DNA from: Planctomycetota bacterium
GTDB taxonomy: Bacteria > Planctomycetota > PUPC01 > DSUN01
DNA: 11,759 nucleotides
Reading direction: 5' to 3'
Assembly (NCBI GenBank): GCA_016872875.1
Contig: VGYW01000264.1
Span: 1-11,759, forward strand
Shown: in pieces, positions 445 to 11,759 of the stretch
How the letters are laid out: each line of letters begins with the position of its first letter
How positions within the stretch are numbered: the stretch's first letter is position 1
The notes under the pieces: generated by a model
What the model was told of the DNA's origin: nothing
Database searches by the model: none
The model's input: only the letters and a program-made list of their open reading frames with translations
Made by a program: the position numbers and the translations under genes

Positions 445-1635
445 ATGGACCTCGATGCCTGTGTGTTGTGCGTGTTGATTGCCGCCTGCCTCCTGGCGGC
501 GCAGGCGGCGGGGGCCGAGGAGGCGAAGCCGCCTGGCCTGGTGAAGGCGGAGTTCATCTACGAGAGGGCGCCGTTCCCCCAGTGCCACGCCTCGACCATC
601 GCCGAATCGGGCGGCGGCCTTGTGGCCGCGTGGTTCGGCGGCGCCGCCGAAGGGAAACCCGACGTCGGCATCTGGCTCTCGCGGCATGATGGGAAGGCAT
701 GGTCGCCGCCCGTCGAAGTCGCCAACGGTGAAGTCGCTGTAGGCGGGGCGTCTCTGCCCCGCGAACAGGTTGTGGGCGGGGCGTCTCTGCCCCGCGAATC
801 CCCTGTGAAACGCTACCCCTGCTGGAACCCGGTGCTCTTCCAGGCGAAGAGCAGCGGGGCAGCGACGCCCGAATCACGCGGGGCAGGGACGCCCGGATCA
901 CGCGGGGCAGGGACGCCCCGCCTACAACTGTTCTACAAGGTCGGCCCCAGCCCGCGCGCCTGGTGGGGGATGATGATGGCGTCCGAGGACGGCGGCAAGA
1001 CCTGGTCGAAGCCCCGGCGCCTGCCCGACGGCATTCTCGGCCCGATCAAGAACAAGCCGATCCAGCTCCCGGGCGGCGAGCTCCTCTGCGCCTCGAGCAC
1101 TGAAGACCAGGGGTGGCGGGTCCACTTCGAGCTCTCGCCCGACCTGGGGAAGACCTGGCGAAAGGCCGGCCCCGTGAACGACGGCAAGGCGTTCGGCGCC
1201 ATCCAGCCCACGCTCCTCGTCCACGGCAGCCGCATCCAGGCCCTCTGCCGCAGCCGCCAGGGACGCATCGTCCAGGTCTGGAGCGACGACGGCGGCAAGA
1301 CCTGGGGCGAGATGACCGCCACCGAGCTTCCGAACCCGAACGCAGGGATTGACGGCGTGACCCTGGCCGACGGCCGCCACCTGCTCGTCTACAACCACAC
1401 CCCCCGCGGCCGCTCGCCCCTCAACGTGGCCGTCAGTCGGGATGGCAAGGTCTGGCAGGCGGCAGCCGTCCTGGAGAGCGAGCCGGGCGAGTATTCCTAC
1501 CCCGCCGTCATCCAGAGCGCCGACGGCCTGGTCCACACCACCTACACCTGGAAGCGCCAGCGGGTCAAACACGTCGTACTCGACCCCGCAAAGCTCGCCC
1601 CGCGCCCCATGCCCGAAGGCCAATGGCCGAAGTGA
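445..1635 (+). CDS. Secreted sialidase-like BNR beta-propeller protein
   Basis: Probably an extracytoplasmic glycan-cleaving six-bladed propeller of the BNR_2/exo-alpha-sialidase-like family; the true substrate is not shown by the sequence. Residues 1-24 form a hydrophobic leader ending AAGA, although the N-terminus (MDLDA) lacks the usual positive charge. Conserved family stretches are FPQCHASTIAE, GLVAAWFGG, RYPCWNPVLFQ, GPIKNKPIQLPGG and GEYSYPAVIQ. Asp-box-like repeats begin near residues 79, 180, 231, 280 and 331 (for example SEDGGKTW and SDDGGKTW). The start is set by GAGGAG 8 nt upstream. Residues about 99-119 and 137-161 are not family sequence: they are translations of palindromic repeats inserted in frame on both sides of RYPCWNPVLFQ. 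The classical FRIP motif of sialidases is not evident, so 'sialidase' is a fold name here. The symporter two genes downstream suggests import of a released sugar. Confidence 0.88.
   Translation: MDLDACVLCVLIAACLLAAQAAGAEEAKPPGLVKAEFIYERAPFPQCHASTIAESGGGLVAAWFGGAAEGKPDVGIWLSRHDGKAWSPPVEVANGEVAVGGASLPREQVVGGASLPRESPVKRYPCWNPVLFQAKSSGAATPESRGAGTPGSRGAGTPRLQLFYKVGPSPRAWWGMMMASEDGGKTWSKPRRLPDGILGPIKNKPIQLPGGELLCASSTEDQGWRVHFELSPDLGKTWRKAGPVNDGKAFGAIQPTLLVHGSRIQALCRSRQGRIVQVWSDDGGKTWGEMTATELPNPNAGIDGVTLADGRHLLVYNHTPRGRSPLNVAVSRDGKVWQAAAVLESEPGEYSYPAVIQSADGLVHTTYTWKRQRVKHVVLDPAKLAPRPMPEGQWPK
739..801 (+). repeat. In-frame palindromic element, two tandem forward units
   Basis: Two units share an identical 24-bp core (742-765 and 775-798, starting GGCGGGGCGTCTCTGCCCCG) at a 33-bp period, that is 11 codons. 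Each is a near-palindrome, with GCGGGGC opposed to GCCCCGC around a short centre, and encodes GGASLPRE. The insertion lies between the conserved VEVANG segment and RYPCWNPVLFQ, and keeps the frame open. The units are the reverse complement of those at 854-925. Confidence 0.8.
854..925 (-). repeat. In-frame palindromic element, three tandem units, opposite orientation
   Basis: Three exact 24-bp units at 854-877, 878-901 and 902-925, each beginning GCGGGGCAG, encode SGAATPE, RGAGTPGS and RGAGTPRL-like octapeptides. The last unit is the reverse complement of 739-762 with a single mismatch. The first two have a truncated right arm followed by GAATCAC or GGATCAC. The period of 8 codons preserves the frame, and the family sequence resumes at LFYKVGP. 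There are no spacers of CRISPR type. Confidence 0.8.
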
Positions 1636-2164: not shown

Positions 2165-2185
2165 GTCCAGGAGAGTGAGCAAGTT

Positions 2186-2240
2186 CGTAGTGCGCGCTTC
2201 AGCCCGTGCGCACCAGATACGGCCTGAAGGCCGCACTACG
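2186..2240. repeat. REP-like imperfect hairpin upstream of the symporter gene
   Basis: Outer arms CGTAGTGCG (2186-2194) and CGCACTACG (2232-2240) pair over 9 bp. Inside, CTTCAG (2197-2202) pairs with CTGAAG (2224-2229), and the apical region is G/C-rich. Structure and intergenic position are those of a repetitive extragenic palindrome. In the long upstream extension of the symporter frame (GTG at 2175) this DNA would be translated, but that extension has no transporter character. Confidence 0.55.
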
Positions 2241-2279
2241 AGCGTTGCGTGTCATTGCGCCGCGGTAGGATTCGGTGCC

Positions 2280-5843: not shown

Positions 5844-6136
5844 GTGGGCAGACCATTGCCGAGCTCGAATGCGTCAAGAGGATAGAGCCCCCTACTGACG
5901 CGGCGGAGGCGCACGGGGCTCCAGGTACGCCTGGAGTAACCCATTTCAGCGTGCGATATGCCCACGGCCTCGACGCGTTCGGTCCTAAGATAAGGGAGCA
6001 ATTGCGGCAGCTCGCGGCAGAGGTCGAGGCCTGGCAACAAAGGCAGGGCCTTGCTGAGGAGTGGCGGGCCGCCGCGGAGGCCTCGGGGGCGCTCGATTTC
6101 CTGCGCGATGACCCTCTGCTTGAGGATGGGGAGTGA
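5840..6136 (+). CDS. Putative antitoxin-like small protein upstream of MazF
   Basis: A 98-residue product of unrecognised family. The N-terminal half is irregular. The centre (KIREQLRQLAAEVEAWQQRQ, about 51-70) looks like a charged helix, and the C-terminus is strongly acidic (ALDFLRDDPLLEDGE). Position argues for an antitoxin: it lies immediately ahead of a MazF-family toxin, with a 4-nt overlap with the possible GTG start (GTGA at 6133) and a tail resembling that of the second module's antitoxin (FDFLKEPAEDIY...DGE). AAGGGGG sits 5 nt before the ATG, which itself overlaps the preceding stop. No recognisable AbrB or ribbon-helix-helix DNA-binding motif is visible. A small palindrome (5919-5936) falls in its coding sequence. 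Confidence 0.6.
   Translation: MSGQTIAELECVKRIEPPTDAAEAHGAPGTPGVTHFSVRYAHGLDAFGPKIREQLRQLAAEVEAWQQRQGLAEEWRAAAEASGALDFLRDDPLLEDGE
5919..5936. repeat. Small palindrome within the antitoxin-like gene
   Basis: CTCCAGG (5919-5925) and CCTGGAG (5930-5936) pair over 7 bp around TACG. It encodes part of GAPGTPGV, a low-complexity turn that could be an inserted in-frame palindrome like those elsewhere in the window. A single short example is not conclusive. Confidence 0.3.
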
Positions 6137-6147
6137 GGTGGACACCC

Positions 6148-6519
6148 ATGCCGGAGGGCTATCCCCAGCAGGGCGATGTCTGGTTCGTCCCGTTCGCGAT
6201 GCCATCCGCGGATAGTGCTGGGCTGAAGTTCAGGCCGGCGGTCGTAGTGTCCGCGGCCCCTATCGAAGAGACGCGCGGCACGGTCACCTTGGCGGCGATC
6301 AGTAGCAGGACAGAGCCGAGAACGCGCTTCGACATCTTCGTCGGCGCCTCTTCCGGCCTCGCGCGGGCGATGGGGCTGAACCGCGACAGCATCATCTGCT
6401 GCGACATCCTCCAAACCTTCAGTATCGCGGCCTTGGGACGTAAGATAGGAAGGGTCAACGAAGAGACCCGGACGCGGATTGGCGAGAAGCTTGCTGAGTT
6501 CTTCGCCCTTCAACGGTAG
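6148..6519 (+). CDS. MazF/PemK-family toxin (module 1)
   Basis: Predicted sequence-specific endoribonuclease toxin of the PemK/MazF/CcdB fold, 123 residues. GDVWFVPF near the N-terminus, FRPAVVVSA, a central strand TVTLAAIS, GLNRDSIICCDILQTFS and the ending IGRVNEETRTRIGEKLAEFF match the family from end to end. I chose ATG 6148, preceded by GAGGTGG with about 6-7 nt of spacing. GTG 6133 (4-nt overlap with the previous stop) is an in-frame alternative adding five residues. The toxin would be held inactive by the product of the overlapping upstream gene. The module follows a methyltransferase and a DUF6941 gene, consistent with an accessory block. Confidence 0.82.
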   Translation: MPEGYPQQGDVWFVPFAMPSADSAGLKFRPAVVVSAAPIEETRGTVTLAAISSRTEPRTRFDIFVGASSGLARAMGLNRDSIICCDILQTFSIAALGRKIGRVNEETRTRIGEKLAEFFALQR

Positions 6520-6664
6520 ACGCCTGAGCTCTGGTGGGCACTCACGTGCTGCCTTGCCGCCTGCCTTCCCCAAGCACCTTCGCGCTTGCTCTCAACGCCT
6601 TCGGCTCGACGTAGGCGGGGCCGTTCTGCCTCGCCGTGGCATGGCTTGCTAAAGGAGAACGCAG
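6520..6664. other. Intergenic gap before the DUF4838 gene
   Basis: These 145 nt hold no convincing gene and no clear intrinsic terminator. They contain a degenerate copy of the palindromic element (6611-6634) and, at 6652-6657, AAGGAG, the ribosome site of the next gene. I could not find a convincing promoter for that gene. Confidence 0.5.
6611..6634 (+). repeat. Degenerate intergenic copy of the in-frame palindromic element
   Basis: It begins GTAGGCGGGGC, the same first 11 bases as 739-749, and continues with a TGCC-T-CGC right arm. About 20 of 24 positions match the unit at 739-762, with changes concentrated at the centre. It shows that the element is not confined to the sialidase-like gene. 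Confidence 0.5.
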
Positions 6665-9025
6665 ATGATACGAGCGAAACCGGCACCCCTCGCAGCGCTG
6701 TTTGTGCTGTCGGTCTGTCCCGCCATCGCCGACGACCTGAATCCAGTGAAGTCCAAGAAGGCGCCCAGGCATCCGGCGGTCGCCATCGCGGAGAAGGGGC
6801 AGGCGAAGGCAACTATCTGCGTGATGGGCGGGAAGGGCGATGCGGTGCTCGCCCAGGCGGTGAAGGAGCTTCAGGAGTGCATCGAGCTGGCGGCGGGGGC
6901 GAAGCTGCCCATCGTGCAGGACAAGGTGCAGCCGCCCGCCATCGTGATCGGGAACTGCGCCGAGGCTGCGGCAGAAGGGCTCGACGGGGCAAAGATGCCC
7001 GTCGAGGGCTTCGCCATCAAGTCGGCCCCCGACCGCATCTTCATCGTCGGCCACGATGGGCCAGTGGGCAAAGGCACCCACGCGGCCTCCCACGGCACCG
7101 CCTGGGGCGTCTTCGAGTTTCTCGAGCGCTTCGTGGGCGTGAGATGGTACTGGCCGACGGAGCGGGGCGGGCGCTCGATTGTGAAGGTGAAGAGCCTGGT
7201 TGTGAAGCCGGTGTGGCTGGAGGACGCGCCGGTGTTCCGCAAGCGCGAGATCTGGCCGCCCTGTGGCGAGCCGTGGCATGGCCGCGGCCAGCCGCTCGGG
7301 CCGCTCCACAACCGCCTGAGGGCGGGAAACTCGTGGCCCATCAGCCTGGTCGTCCACTCCCCCAACTGGGCGGGGGTGAAGGAATACGCGGAGGGGCGGC
7401 CGGAGTGCTTCCAGCTCGGCTCCGACGGCTCACGCAACTTCCAGATGCTCTGCTACGGCAACCCCAGGACGCTTGCGACCTACCTGGAGAACATCGCGCT
7501 GCACTTCGACAAGGGACGGAAGGCTCACATGGGCATCGTGGGCGACGCCATCACCGTGTCGCCCAACGACGCAGGAATCGCCTGCTACTGCCCCGATTGC
7601 CGCAAGCTCTGGGATGACAAGGGGGGCCAGTATGGCACCGCCTCCCGCATCCTGGCCGCGTTCGTGGACAAGTTGGCCCGCGAGGTGAAGACCCGTTGGC
7701 CCGACAAGACGGTCATCTACCTGCCCTACCTCAACTACACGCTCGCGCCCGACGGCTTCAAGTTCCCGGGCAACGTGGAGGTGCAACTGTGCGGCATGCC
7801 CGGCATCGCACAATACAAGGAGCGGTCAGTCCTCGCCTCCGAGCAGGCGAACGTGGACAAGTGGGTCGCCATCACGGGCCGCAAGATTCAGAACTGGCAC
7901 TACAGTTGCTGGCCAGAGGACAAGACGAAGGCCCCCTACCACTACCCCCACGTGCTGAAAGCCTACTACCGGGCGAACCGCGACAAGCTGATCGGCTCGT
8001 TCATCAACGGTGACGGCGACCACTTCCCCCGCCAGCACATAAGCCTCTATTGCTGGATGAAGCTCCTCTGGAATCCCGATTTCGACGTTGATGCCGCGAT
8101 GGAGGACTTCTGCGACCGCATGTTCGGGCGGGCGGCCTCGTCAATCCGCCGGCTGCTCGATCTTCAGGTTGACGGCTGGGAGAAGAGCCGCTGGCCCGAT
8201 GGCCTCCTCTCGCCCAAGGCCATCTACGAGGCGAGCTACCCCCGCCGCACCGTCGAGCGGATGAAGGACCTCCTCGCCCGTGCGCGCAAGCAGGCCGAGG
8301 GCGGCGAGGAGGCGGCCAAGCGGGTCGAATACTACGCCACGCCCTTCCCCGACTTCTTCGAGGAGTTCGCCGCCGTCGTCGAGGGCAAGGGCGCAAGGCC
8401 CCTCATCGTCCAGAAGGTCGGCGAGAACCCCACGATTGACGGCAAGCTCGACGACGCGGCCTGGAAGCGCGCCCCCGAGGCCTCGCTCTTCAAGCACGTG
8501 GACAAGAAGGAGGTCGAGCCGAAGCACCCCACCAAGCTGCGGGCGGTCTGGACGATGGACGGCGTGACCTTCGGCTTCTGGATGGCCGAGCCGTCGCCCC
8601 AGTCGCTCGTCCAAACCGTCAAGTCGCGCGACGAATCAATGGCCTGGTGGAACGACTCCGTCGAGGTCTTCCTCGACGTCACTGGCAAGAACCAGGGCCA
8701 CTGGTATCAATGGATCATCAACCCCCACGGCATCATCCACGACGGGAAGGGCCAGGACACCTCCTGGAACCCCGAGGGCGTGAAGACCAAGGCGTTCATC
8801 GGGAGCGACTTCTGGAGCCTCGAGGTCTTCATCCCCTACGCCCTCTTCCCCGAGGCCCTCAAGCCGGGCACCAACGTGGCCTGGTACGGCCAGTTCACCC
8901 GCCACCGCATGAGCGACCACGGCAAGTCCCCGGGAAGCCTCCACGAGAACCAGAAGCTGAACTGTAGGTTCGGCGGCTTCAACAGCAACCTGGCCGACTT
9001 CGCGCCCGTGAAGTTCGTCGAATGA
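6665..9025 (+). CDS. Secreted DUF4838 protein with C-terminal CBM9-like domain
   Basis: A 786-residue exported protein. Residues 1-22 are a signal peptide (hydrophobic core LAALFVLSV, cleavage near AIA-DD). Residues about 50-170 resemble the N-terminal domain preceding DUF4838 and alpha-glucuronidase-like proteins (GTAWGVFEFLERFVGVRWYWPTE). Residues about 285-540 are the DUF4838 core, with VSPNDAGIACYCPDC and a TIM-barrel-like continuation (VIYLPYLNYTLAP). From about 580 the sequence IDGKLDDAAWKRA opens a CBM9-like beta-sandwich that runs to the end. DUF4838 proteins are associated with glycan degradation in this bacterial group, but I know of no agreed reaction. AAGGAG 7 nt upstream fixes the start. 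Its last ~100 bp recur at 9725-9825, and a toxin-antitoxin cassette begins right after its stop. Confidence 0.85.
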   Translation: MIRAKPAPLAALFVLSVCPAIADDLNPVKSKKAPRHPAVAIAEKGQAKATICVMGGKGDAVLAQAVKELQECIELAAGAKLPIVQDKVQPPAIVIGNCAEAAAEGLDGAKMPVEGFAIKSAPDRIFIVGHDGPVGKGTHAASHGTAWGVFEFLERFVGVRWYWPTERGGRSIVKVKSLVVKPVWLEDAPVFRKREIWPPCGEPWHGRGQPLGPLHNRLRAGNSWPISLVVHSPNWAGVKEYAEGRPECFQLGSDGSRNFQMLCYGNPRTLATYLENIALHFDKGRKAHMGIVGDAITVSPNDAGIACYCPDCRKLWDDKGGQYGTASRILAAFVDKLAREVKTRWPDKTVIYLPYLNYTLAPDGFKFPGNVEVQLCGMPGIAQYKERSVLASEQANVDKWVAITGRKIQNWHYSCWPEDKTKAPYHYPHVLKAYYRANRDKLIGSFINGDGDHFPRQHISLYCWMKLLWNPDFDVDAAMEDFCDRMFGRAASSIRRLLDLQVDGWEKSRWPDGLLSPKAIYEASYPRRTVERMKDLLARARKQAEGGEEAAKRVEYYATPFPDFFEEFAAVVEGKGARPLIVQKVGENPTIDGKLDDAAWKRAPEASLFKHVDKKEVEPKHPTKLRAVWTMDGVTFGFWMAEPSPQSLVQTVKSRDESMAWWNDSVEVFLDVTGKNQGHWYQWIINPHGIIHDGKGQDTSWNPEGVKTKAFIGSDFWSLEVFIPYALFPEALKPGTNVAWYGQFTRHRMSDHGKSPGSLHENQKLNCRFGGFNSNLADFAPVKFVE
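8921..9021 (+). repeat. Direct repeat, copy 1 (3' end of DUF4838 gene)
   Basis: These 101 bp align without gaps to 9725-9825 (offset 804). All nine mismatches fall within 8927-8962, and the last 59 bp (8963-9021) are identical. Similarity stops exactly at the stop codon. Weaker similarity extends a few codons upstream of 8921. Confidence 0.85.
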
Positions 9026-9117: not shown

Positions 9118-9372
9118 GTGGCAGTGACAGCGAGAGCGGTCGAAATCAGCGGCGTGGTGGACACCGACCACCAGCTTCACCTCGACGGCCCCGTGCCGAT
9201 TGCTGGCCCCAGCCGCGTGCGCGTCATCATCCTCGTGCCAGAGGACGCCGACCTTGACGAGTCCGAATGGCTCCGCTCGGCGGCAACGAACCCCGCCTTT
9301 GACTTCCTGAAAGAGCCCGCAGAGGACATCTACTCGCCTACAGACGGGGAGCCGTTCCGTGACGAAGGGTAG
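9118..9372 (+). CDS. MazF-associated antitoxin (module 2)
   Basis: An 84-residue predicted antitoxin. The N-terminal part (ISGVVDTDHQLHLDGPVP, then VRVIILVPE) is a short beta-rich dimerisation or DNA-binding-like segment. The acidic tail FDFLKEPAEDIYSPTDGEPF is characteristic of antitoxins paired with MazF-like toxins in these bacteria. The open frame reaches back to 9022, but GTG 9118 is preferred because GAGGAGG lies 9 nt before it and the promoter at 9060-9087 sits in the extension. The toxin gene begins inside its last codons with a 14-nt overlap, which ensures coupled translation. Autoregulation is likely by analogy with such modules; no operator is obvious. Confidence 0.8.
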   Translation: MAVTARAVEISGVVDTDHQLHLDGPVPIAGPSRVRVIILVPEDADLDESEWLRSAATNPAFDFLKEPAEDIYSPTDGEPFRDEG

Positions 9373-9700
9373 CGTCGTCCTCGTCCCCTTCCCATTCGAC
9401 GATCTCTCCACCTCCAAGGTCAGGCCGGCCGTATGCCTGACCGAACCGGTTGGTCCGCACCGTCACGTTGTGCTCGCCTTCATCACAAGCCAGCCGCAGG
9501 CCGCTCCGCTTGACAGCGACGTTCCCTTGGACTCCGCGGCCCCGGACTTCGGCGCCACGGGGTTGCGTGTCACTTCCGTCCTGCGGCTTCATCGCCTCAT
9601 GACTGTCAGCGGGTCCCTGATCCAGAGGCGGCTCGGCGAGCTCCCGCCATCCATCCAGACGCTCGTCGCGGCGAAGCTACGCAGGTTGTTCGGACTCTGA
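9359..9700 (+). CDS. MazF/PemK-family toxin (module 2)
   Basis: A predicted endoribonuclease toxin of 113 residues. SVVLVPFPFDDLSTSKVRPAV is the family's N-terminal strand and RP-containing loop, VLAFITSQP the following strand, GLRVTSVLRLHRLMTV the central segment and LGELPPSIQTLVAAKLRRLF the C-terminal helix. The usual 'GD' before the first strand is 'GS' here, a small deviation. The start is GTG 9359, inside the end of the antitoxin gene; no separate ribosome site is needed if translation is coupled. It is clearly diverged from the toxin at 6148-6519, so the two modules are not a recent duplication. The stop is 12 nt before the remnant of the DUF4838 tail begins. Confidence 0.82.
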   Translation: MTKGSVVLVPFPFDDLSTSKVRPAVCLTEPVGPHRHVVLAFITSQPQAAPLDSDVPLDSAAPDFGATGLRVTSVLRLHRLMTVSGSLIQRRLGELPPSIQTLVAAKLRRLFGL

Positions 9701-9712
9701 CGCAGTGGTCAA

Positions 9713-9829
9713 GCAAGCGACGGGGGCAAGGCCTCCAGAAGCCTGCACGGGAACCAGATGCTGAGTTGTAGGTTCGGCGGCTTCAACAGCAACCTGGCCG
9801 ACTTCGCGCCCGTGAAGTTCGTCGAGTAA
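9713..9829 (+). pseudogene. Remnant of a DUF4838-gene 3' end
   Basis: In frame with the homologous tail this segment encodes ASDGGKASRSLHGNQ and then the same final 20 residues as the intact gene, ending FVE and TAA (9827-9829). The rest of the gene is absent: a toxin stop lies at 9698-9700 and no start codon or ribosome site leads into the remnant. It is either the original 3' end of the upstream gene, displaced by insertion of the toxin module, or the last trace of a second tandem paralogue. Its TAA overlaps the AAGGAG used by the next gene. Confidence 0.75.
9725..9825 (+). repeat. Direct repeat, copy 2
   Basis: Partner of 8921-9021, about 91 percent identical (92 of 101 positions), with the terminal 59 bp (9767-9825) identical. 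Together the two copies bracket the second toxin-antitoxin module. Confidence 0.85.
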
Positions 9830-9842
9830 GGAGCAAGGTGCA

Positions 9843-11759
9843 ATGCGTGTCGGACGAATCGCGGCGTTGTGCGTGCTGGCTTCTGAAGCGGCCTCGGCGG
9901 CGGAGCTGAAGCTCCTGATGCCGCTGGGGCGCGTGGCGTACCAGACGAATGAGGCGATTGGCGTCTCCGTCGTTCGCAGCGCGAAGGAGGCGCTGGCGGC
10001 GGGGGAGCTGCGCCTCGCGCTCGCGGGGCCGGAGGGGAGCCGGGTGACTGTGGTTTTCCCGGTCACAGGCGGGACGCCTGTGCCACCGGACACTGAGGCC
10101 CGGCGCACGGAGCACCTGCACCTGAACGGCTGGCTGCTGAGGCCGGGACGCTACACGCTGGAGGCGTCGTGCGATGGGGCGACGGCGACGACGGAGTTCA
10201 CGGTCCACAGCCACATCCGCAAGTCGTCGTTCCGCCTGATTGACTGGGGCTGCGGGGCGAAGAAGGACGAGGCGGCCCGCCTGGGCGAGGACGGCATGGG
10301 CTTCAACCTGCTCCTGGCGTCCTACGGCGGGCACGACCAGGACGCGAATATCCGCGGCGGCCTGGACTACATGCGGAACTGCACGATGGGCGGCGCGCAC
10401 CAGATGGACATGCGGCTGGAGTGCGACTGGTCCGACCCCTACGTGCTGGCGGGCGGCATGGCCCGCTCGGCCCGCCAGGCGTTCGCCGACCGCACGGCGC
10501 CGAACGTCGTCGGCGTGCACTTCTACGACGAGCCGGGCCTCACGTGGCAGAAGCACCCGAAAACGGGCGTGTTCACGGGCCACGACATTCCGGCGCAGCG
10601 CCGCGCCTGGAAATCCGCCTTTGGCCAAGAGCTGCCCGAGTACACCGAAATCAAGCCCGGCAACCCGGAGCACGAGGCCCTCTGGGGCCGCTGGCTCCGC
10701 TGGAAGCAGGTCTTCATGGAATCCGCCTGGCGCTCCGCCGCCTTCAGCGTGAACTGGGTGCGGCCCGACTGGCTCTCGGCGACCCAGAGCGTCTACGGCT
10801 GGCACGCCTTCGGCGACGGTTACTACTTCAACGTCGTGCGCAGCCTGCCCGTCATCAGCGGCCACGGCGGCTACGACGACTACGCGGGCGGCTACCTCAA
10901 CCCCGGCTTCTTCATGGAGTTCGGCCGCTTCCGCGACTACGCCAAGCCCGCCTGGTATCTCCCCACCTGGTGGGGCATGCCCAACGGCCAGTACCGCCTC
11001 GAGCAATACCTGACCTTCATGGCGAACGTCCAGGGCCTCTGCAAGCCGCCCGACCACCACATCCACAACCCCGGCGCCAAGAAGGGCTCGCCCGACGACG
11101 CCATCGTGGAGAGCAACAAGCTCATGGCCCGCCTGGGCACGATCTTCACGACGATGCCAGTCAATCGGTCAGAGATCGCCGTCCTCTACTCGATGTCGCA
11201 GAACGTCCGTGCGATGCTCAAGAGCAAGGACATGCTGAACTTCCAGGACTTTCCCGGCCAACTGGAGCGGCTGGAAGTCCTGTTCGTGGCGAGCAAGATG
11301 GCGCACATCCCGCTCTTCCCGCTGGTGGAGGAGGACGTGCTGGACGGCACGCTGGCGGCGAACCACAAGGCCATCGTGCTCGCGGGCATCGAGGCGCTCG
11401 ACCCCGAGGTGGTGAAGGCGCTGGAGGCGTATGCCGCAAAGGGCGGCAAGGTCATCCTCGGCGACGAGTGCGCCGTGAAGATCGCCGGGGCGGCGAAGCT
11501 CGGCGCAGCCATCACCGACAAAATCTACGTCGAGGCGGGCAAGGCGTTCAACGACAAGAGCGACAAGGAGTGGCGGACGAAGGGCCTGCTCGCCCGGCGG
11601 CCGGGCATGTACTTCAAGGAGGCGAAGCCCATCGCCGCGGCGCTCACCAAGCGCTGCGCCGAGGTCGGCGTCGCGCCCGTCGTCGAGTGCGACAACCCCC
11701 AGGTCTTCGCCGCCCGCCACGCCCTCGGCGACATCGAGTACCTCTTCCTCGTCAACGCC
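9843..11759 (+). CDS. Secreted GH42-like protein (3' end beyond window)
   Basis: The first 639 codons of a longer gene. A short leader (residues 1-20, hydrophobic IAALCVLA, cleavage near ASA-AE) precedes a beta-sandwich domain (about 21-122: LKLLMPLGRVAYQTNEAIG through YTLEASCDG). A TIM-barrel-like region follows (about 130-430) with VVGVHFYDEPG, in which Glu230 is a candidate acid catalyst. A Rossmann-like segment (about 445-545) then resembles the trimerisation domain of GH42 beta-galactosidases (IAVLYSMSQN; KAIVLAGIEALDPEVVKALEAYAAKGGKVILGDE in outline). The true activity is not established and the second catalytic glutamate cannot be assigned. AAGGAG (9828-9833) lies 9 nt before the ATG and overlaps the stop of the DUF4838 remnant, a classic coupled junction. 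A palindromic element (10064-10082) is read through in frame within the first domain. Confidence 0.75.
   Translation, partial: MRVGRIAALCVLASEAASAAELKLLMPLGRVAYQTNEAIGVSVVRSAKEALAAGELRLALAGPEGSRVTVVFPVTGGTPVPPDTEARRTEHLHLNGWLLRPGRYTLEASCDGATATTEFTVHSHIRKSSFRLIDWGCGAKKDEAARLGEDGMGFNLLLASYGGHDQDANIRGGLDYMRNCTMGGAHQMDMRLECDWSDPYVLAGGMARSARQAFADRTAPNVVGVHFYDEPGLTWQKHPKTGVFTGHDIPAQRRAWKSAFGQELPEYTEIKPGNPEHEALWGRWLRWKQVFMESAWRSAAFSVNWVRPDWLSATQSVYGWHAFGDGYYFNVVRSLPVISGHGGYDDYAGGYLNPGFFMEFGRFRDYAKPAWYLPTWWGMPNGQYRLEQYLTFMANVQGLCKPPDHHIHNPGAKKGSPDDAIVESNKLMARLGTIFTTMPVNRSEIAVLYSMSQNVRAMLKSKDMLNFQDFPGQLERLEVLFVASKMAHIPLFPLVEEDVLDGTLAANHKAIVLAGIEALDPEVVKALEAYAAKGGKVILGDECAVKIAGAAKLGAAITDKIYVEAGKAFNDKSDKEWRTKGLLARRPGMYFKEAKPIAAALTKRCAEVGVAPVVECDNPQVFAARHALGDIEYLFLVNA
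10064..10082. repeat. In-frame palindrome within the GH42-like gene
   Basis: CACAGGCG (10064-10071) and CGCCTGTG (10075-10082) form a perfect 8-bp stem around GGA, with GGT and ACC further out (10061-10063 and 10085-10087). It encodes VTGGTPVPP (about residues 74-82) in a loop of the N-terminal beta-sandwich. Its centre GGGACGCC is shared with the third reverse unit in the sialidase-like gene (910-917). Confidence 0.6.

Follow-up and report, generated by a model that had tools for sequence, protein, structure and literature searches.

A sialidase gene on an 11,759-nt contig of a Planctomycetota bacterium (VGYW01000264.1 of assembly GCA_016872875.1; "the window" denotes this whole stretch) carries, in frame and in two loops, 26-nt units of a palindrome family that is dispersed through a related genome. 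We conclude that these units are very probably GTRG-tagged repetitive extragenic palindromes (REPs) mobilised by a REP-associated tyrosine transposase (RAYT), and that they survive in genes if they are neutral to the reading frame and tolerable as peptide. The evidence comes from the window, from homologues of its sialidase, and from G001, the Planctomycetota metagenome-assembled genome holding L001, the best genomic homologue of the sialidase.

Each unit is built as TGTRG-GCGGGGC-loop-GCCCCGC-G. As the original prediction, made from the bare sequence, had described, the window gene contains two forward units with a 33-bp period (738-765 and 771-798, 96% identical), and reverse units follow at the 24-bp period it gave (854-877, 878-901 and 902-925). 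The reverse units had been called exact, yet identity to the first is 92% for the second and 75% for the third. The reverse complementarity with one mismatch that it had pointed out is found as a 26-nt inverted repeat between 738-763 and 901-926. As a single strand, each of the three intact units is predicted to form a hairpin with an 8-bp stem (-10.2 kcal/mol), full hairpin folding being lost in units 877-902 and 853-878, and a GTAG/GTRG foot stands directly 5' of the short palindrome in three of the five units. The 24-nt core amounts to eight codons (GTG GGC GGG GCG TCT CTG CCC CGC), and with a GTGG head all six of its frames are open. The gene was said to stay open because both reading directions lack stops; an open reading frame (ORF) check found 445-1635 open throughout despite the inserted units, but when the head is GTAG, one of the six frames of the unit contains a stop (TAG). 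In 20 dinucleotide-preserving shuffles of the window there were no matches to the family pattern at <=4 mismatches and 1.15 on average per shuffle at <=7, and Rfam at gathering thresholds gave no match in the window.

The two stretches are insertions, as proposed. Out of 7,999 sialidase homologues scored, the best 120 were aligned, and nearly all of these lack both stretches; at the DNA level, the window differs from its closest genomic homologue, L205, by two 63-nt inserts (Table 1) whose ends are ambiguous by a few bases. Insertion 1 is preceded by VEVANG and followed by ESPVKRYPCW. In the structure model both inserts lie in loops between strands and have the lowest confidence of the whole sialidase, with a predicted local distance difference test score (pLDDT) of about 45 at residues 101-120 (insertion 1) and about 57-67 at residues 141-160 (insertion 2). 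None of the 95 genomic sialidase loci (80 + 15, L001 and L205 being one gene counted among them) has a unit at these loops, so that the inserted residues, whose conservation among homologues would have spoken for native sequence, are not conserved. At the DNA level, the sialidase array of the window was not found in any relative. Single units do occur at these sites in other homologues: P0001 has one reverse unit only, P0002 and P0005 have one forward unit only, and P0004 and P0093 are possible further carriers; the additional residues that P0041, P0096 and some others have at these places are unrelated. The sialidase P0083, 60% identical to the query, holds at the reverse-side loop a fourfold array of ten residues with a different sequence, RGMETSRPNE; either more than one lineage has filled this loop, or its units have diverged. 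The N-terminal helix of the window sialidase is presumably a signal peptide.

Table 1. The sialidase gene, its insertions and the REP units of the window (positions on the forward strand)
Feature	Position	Strand	Remarks
Host gene, BNR_2 (PF13088) sialidase, 396 aa	445..1635	+	N-terminal helix 3-23; two loop insertions
Insertion 1, 63 nt, two forward REP units	731..793	+	Aligned at DNA level with L205, which lacks it, and at protein level; model
REP unit 1	738..763	+	TGTAG head; 0 mismatches; read VGGASLPR
REP unit 2	771..796	+	TGTGG head; 0 mismatches; read VGGASLPR; 33 nt after unit 1
Insertion 2, 63 nt, reverse REP units	855..917	+	After NPVLFQAKS; alignments, model
REP unit	901..926	-	TGTAG head; 0 mismatches; gene reading RGAGTPRL
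Decayed REP unit	877..902	-	4 mismatches; 5' stem arm lost
Decayed REP unit	853..878	-	7 mismatches; identified from its place in the 24-nt register and from being 92% identical to the adjacent unit
Possible additional REP relic, intergenic	6610..6635	+	5 mismatches; weak

Further copies of the core, which the original prediction had expected, are abundant in G001. The pattern GTAGGCGGGGCGTCYCTGCCCCGC at <=3 mismatches has 279 matches there (reversed control, 0), and the unit TGTRGGCGGGGCNTCYSTGCCCCGCG, defined from the G001 copies, has at <=2 mismatches 369 matches in G001, 16 in G002 and 1 in G031, while the other 389 of 392 genomes of the phylum have none and the reversed-pattern controls gave 0. 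The foot reads GTGG or GTAG in 115/118 genic and 74/76 intergenic G001 copies; because the foot is itself part of the search pattern, this figure is in part circular. Inverted REP pairs occur in G001 at short fixed spacings of 24 and 34 nt. The window's own genome probably resembles G001.

We examined where these copies lie in 92 stretches from G001 (1.12 Mb, of which 83% is coding under the gene models) and 8 from G002, which were chosen for their listed matches and are not a random sample. They hold 199 of the 369 or more G001 copies at <=4 mismatches, and the gene models come from our own Markov script trained on G001. Of these copies, 118 are inside predicted genes, 76 are intergenic and 5 lie on an edge; counted by site, 74/111 are genic. 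The mainly intergenic habit that is usual for REPs, although it does not define them, is not that of this family in G001. Under the same models other palindrome families, some of whose patterns overlap one another, are genic in 0/55, 5/36, 6/69, 9/42, 23/121, 10/27 and 28/70 cases, as against 108/185 for the REP family at <=2 mismatches. Genic and intergenic copies are equally intact (no mismatch in 76/118 and 49/76).

Within genes the copies respect the reading frame. Spacings between same-strand neighbours are multiples of three in all 15 genic pairs and in 11 of 17 intergenic ones, most of the latter from the arrays of locus L100. At the 38 genic sites with a single copy, 29 copies are oriented with the gene and all but one of them (28/29) are read in the frame that yields VGGASLPR or a close variant, the 9 in opposite orientation being spread over three frames. 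The same frame is used by 59 of all 69 gene-oriented genic copies, so that VGGASLPR or a close variant is encoded by 59/118 genic copies and by 28/38 single ones, whereas target availability, for copies entering at C|T, would lead us to expect it in 7% (CT) or 12% (YT) of gene-oriented cases. Codon statistics of the 200-nt flanks, derived from the same gene models, indicate that the frame is kept in 93/105 copies with both flanks coding (a flank does not score as coding in 80 others, and 14 are near an end); by this test 51/58 gene-oriented copies are in the VGGASLPR frame. A codon-phase bias of C|T targets, considered as the source of the pattern, was rejected because it predicts other frames. 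Together with the alignments and the structure model, these results support the proposal that translation-tolerant palindromes are dispersed through the genome and inserted in frame into loops.

The proteins that receive the units are diverse. A Pfam scan of 20 proteins (19 hosts hand-picked from the 74 genic sites, and the RAYT described below) found families in 15, among them AsnB, HemD with TP_methylase, an FGGY kinase, glycosyltransferases, radical SAM proteins, and a GFO_IDH_MocA protein that holds six tandem units. A preference for secreted enzymes, which had been proposed, is not supported by such hosts, and on their Pfam families we rejected a restriction to secreted enzymes. Eight AsnB homologues of other genomes were compared: one is a fragment, and in the seven that span the insertion site the unit is absent. 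In the FGGY kinase the unit forms residues 141-148, the least confident block of the model, between a helix and a strand. Among 26 aligned FGGY relatives, P0140-P0142 have one unit and P0145 two at the same site, 20 have no unit and a different native segment, P0139 is the G001 protein itself and P0155 does not cover the site.

A candidate for the mobilising enzyme is also present in G001. Of the 19 Y1_Tnp matches in this genome (4 in G002), the RAYT at G001:C34 has both the HUH (PDHVH) and the YVHQNP motif and is surrounded by REP arrays, 21 copies lying no farther than 4 kb away. Four REP units sit in frame inside its reading frame, before the HUH motif; since the gene models cut the RAYT short, these four were counted as intergenic above. 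No copy lies near 16 of the other 18 G001 Y1_Tnp loci (C808 and C457 being the other two) or near any of the four in G002. Among relatives of the RAYT, P0122 carries one unit in the same loop and P0123 two; P0124 and P0125 carry none. With P0122 as query, the sole close match over nine genomes of the class was the G001 RAYT (E 1e-85), the next best being 3e-11 in G001 and 9e-11 in G006. Of 33 tandem junctions, many from the same arrays, 23 are preceded by C and 8 by T, consistent with the TnpA-REP cleavage at a C|T beside the hairpin that is described in PMC8266576. We infer that this RAYT moves the REP units.

On our favoured explanation, the 26-nt single-strand hairpin with its GTRG foot would be moved by the RAYT (TnpA-REP, an HUH/Y1 single-strand transposase), which would cut at a C|T adjoining the hairpin. 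New copies would enter genes and intergenic gaps alike; frame-shifting copies, and copies whose peptide is harmful, would be lost, and frame-keeping ones would survive. A loop already holding a unit could gain, lose or exchange further units, giving arrays such as the two plus three of the window. The frame pattern would then be the work of selection and not of the insertion step, and the peptide VGGASLPR is presumably benign.

Several observations weigh against this explanation. All ten copies in the 8 G002 stretches (10/10) are intergenic, so genic location is not set by sequence alone. The family is also not unique in its habit, as a palindrome family read GTGVPPV is more genic still (20/23 at <=6 mismatches, 6/6 for a sub-pattern). 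Opposite-oriented genic copies (n=49, many belonging to inverted pairs) use all three frames, 19, 11 and 19 times, so that no single peptide is required. The ratio of genic to intergenic copies is alike for GTAG (26:17) and GTGG (89:57) heads, which also led us to reject the idea that the GTGG head is favoured for opening all frames. In the FGGY kinase, the different native segment of the unit-free relatives indicates that the unit replaced native residues. As for the enzyme, none of the G002 Y1_Tnp proteins is close to the G001 RAYT (best E 4e-5), and the RAYT itself, with 22 bits, falls short of the Pfam cut-off of 23 and received no Pfam family in the host scan; it may be inactive.

Could the peptide instead be useful to its hosts? 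VGGASLPR might be kept as a flexible linker, the REP serving as a source of adaptive loops, and one frame is indeed dominant among gene-oriented copies, far above target availability, while the FGGY relatives with units at the shared site (P0140-P0142 and P0145) are 66-79% identical to the query. We nonetheless regard this as unlikely, for the hosts are functionally unrelated, the number of units differs at a single site, and most homologues studied lack the unit. We give still less credence to a family of mobile palindromes that has no relation to REPs, which the original prediction had inferred. In-frame insertion into many genes in both orientations would fit such a family, but the GTRG foot, the short hairpin, the inverted pairs and the RAYT gene ringed by REPs in G001 are REP hallmarks.

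The opposed arrays might also serve as a long mRNA hairpin controlling expression of the sialidase. A large stem had been suggested as a possibility, and folding predicts one (733-935, -136.3 kcal/mol, z -8.56, with 0/200 shuffles as stable); any opposed copies, however, would yield such a fold, and the arms are not kept together in homologues, P0001 having the reverse unit only and P0002 and P0005 the forward unit only. A conserved hairpin was therefore rejected, and a functional one is highly improbable. Local tandem duplication of ordinary coding sequence by slippage, with no mobile element, would account for tandem units at 24- and 33-nt periods, and we give it almost no weight: the 369 dispersed copies of G001, in unrelated genes and between genes, refute slippage alone as the origin, though slippage may add units to an existing copy.

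RAYT-driven mobility with survival of frame-neutral copies admits a bolder extension, in which the REP-RAYT pair has shifted its main habitat from intergenic gaps into coding sequence and protein-level selection keeps one benign reading for gene-oriented copies. We hold this joint reading only tentatively, and doubt it more than we believe it, because the one-frame rule is limited to gene-oriented copies. If true, unit number would rise and fall in loops of numerous enzymes and in those of the transposase itself, and the element would keep writing new flexible loops into the proteome. Either way, an eight-residue peptide, hundreds of copies, empty sites and a candidate transposase provide a system for the study of mobile DNA inside genes, in which an old question on intragenic palindromes, tolerated junk or source of protein loops, becomes testable. 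For annotators, VGGASLPR, RGAETPRP and GTGVPPV in such proteins may be repeat footprints and not conserved motifs.

The window and G001 contain other repeats. The palindrome family read GTGVPPV is represented in the window at 10062-10087, in frame as VTGGTPVPP within the ORF starting at 9843; in the G001 stretches, 13 of its 20 genic matches fall in one opposite-strand frame (GTGVPPV, GTGFQPV, GTGILPV). A third type of in-frame insert, with SAIGNRQSAIGN-like peptides, is found in AsnB (L107:15891-17963, about residues 490-516) and in seven other G001 genes, and is missing from the seven AsnB homologues that cover the place. GTAG-foot palindromes, GTAGTGCG... and GGCCTGAAGGCCGCACTAC, stand at window 2180-2245, are frequent in G001 (42/70 intergenic) and probably constitute another REP family. 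The window also has an inverted pair of CATTCTATAGAATGTTTGA at 128-230 (24-nt arms, 55 nt apart) and a 110-nt direct duplication, 89% identical, at 8912-9021 and 9716-9825, the first copy lying at the end of the DUF4838 gene and the second 0.8 kb further downstream. There are also two PemK/MazF-like toxin genes, separate from each other, at 6133-6519 and 9359-9700; each comes after a short ORF, which may be the antitoxin.

Among known systems, the closest are the GTAG-tagged REPs, which PMC3733652 reports in Planctomycetes, together with intragenic REPs in several species. They share with the window and G001 family the GTRG foot, the short palindrome, and the occurrence as singles, inverted pairs, clusters and genic copies; intragenic copies are still classed there as REPs, Opitutus terrae, the species richest in intragenic GTAG-tagged REPs, holds most of these, and two Xanthomonas species have different REPs at roughly the same position in recB. 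The difference is that REPs are mostly intergenic in that account, whereas the G001 family is genic in 118/199 cases and has a strong frame bias. The G001 RAYT resembles subclass 2.4 as described in PMC6006769, where REPs flank the tnpAREP genes and sit inside them while keeping the reading frame; the position of the G001 array before the HUH motif is a difference. Rickettsia palindromic elements (RPEs), the analogy drawn originally, are likewise palindromes in frame in unrelated genes (PMC3733652 and PMC10969869). No sharp line separates them from REPs, as RPE-4 and RPE-6 are counted among CGTC-tagged REPs in PMC3733652. We set them apart by description: they belong to another phylum and have a CGTC foot where the window family has GTRG, and the RPEs of PMC10969869 are about 150 bp long against 26 nt for the window unit. 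In-frame REPs in genes and in RAYT genes have accordingly been published (PMC3733652, PMC6006769), and the notable part here is the genic majority together with the frame bias. In the open literature, titles and abstracts among the matches listed describe no mainly intragenic or single-frame REP family, subscription papers and supplements being outside the scope of that search. REPINs and BIMEs are inverted REP pairs. The inverted pairs of G001, spaced at 24 and 34 nt, are like them; unlike them, the opposed arrays of the window occupy different loops, and the sequence that separates these is conserved.
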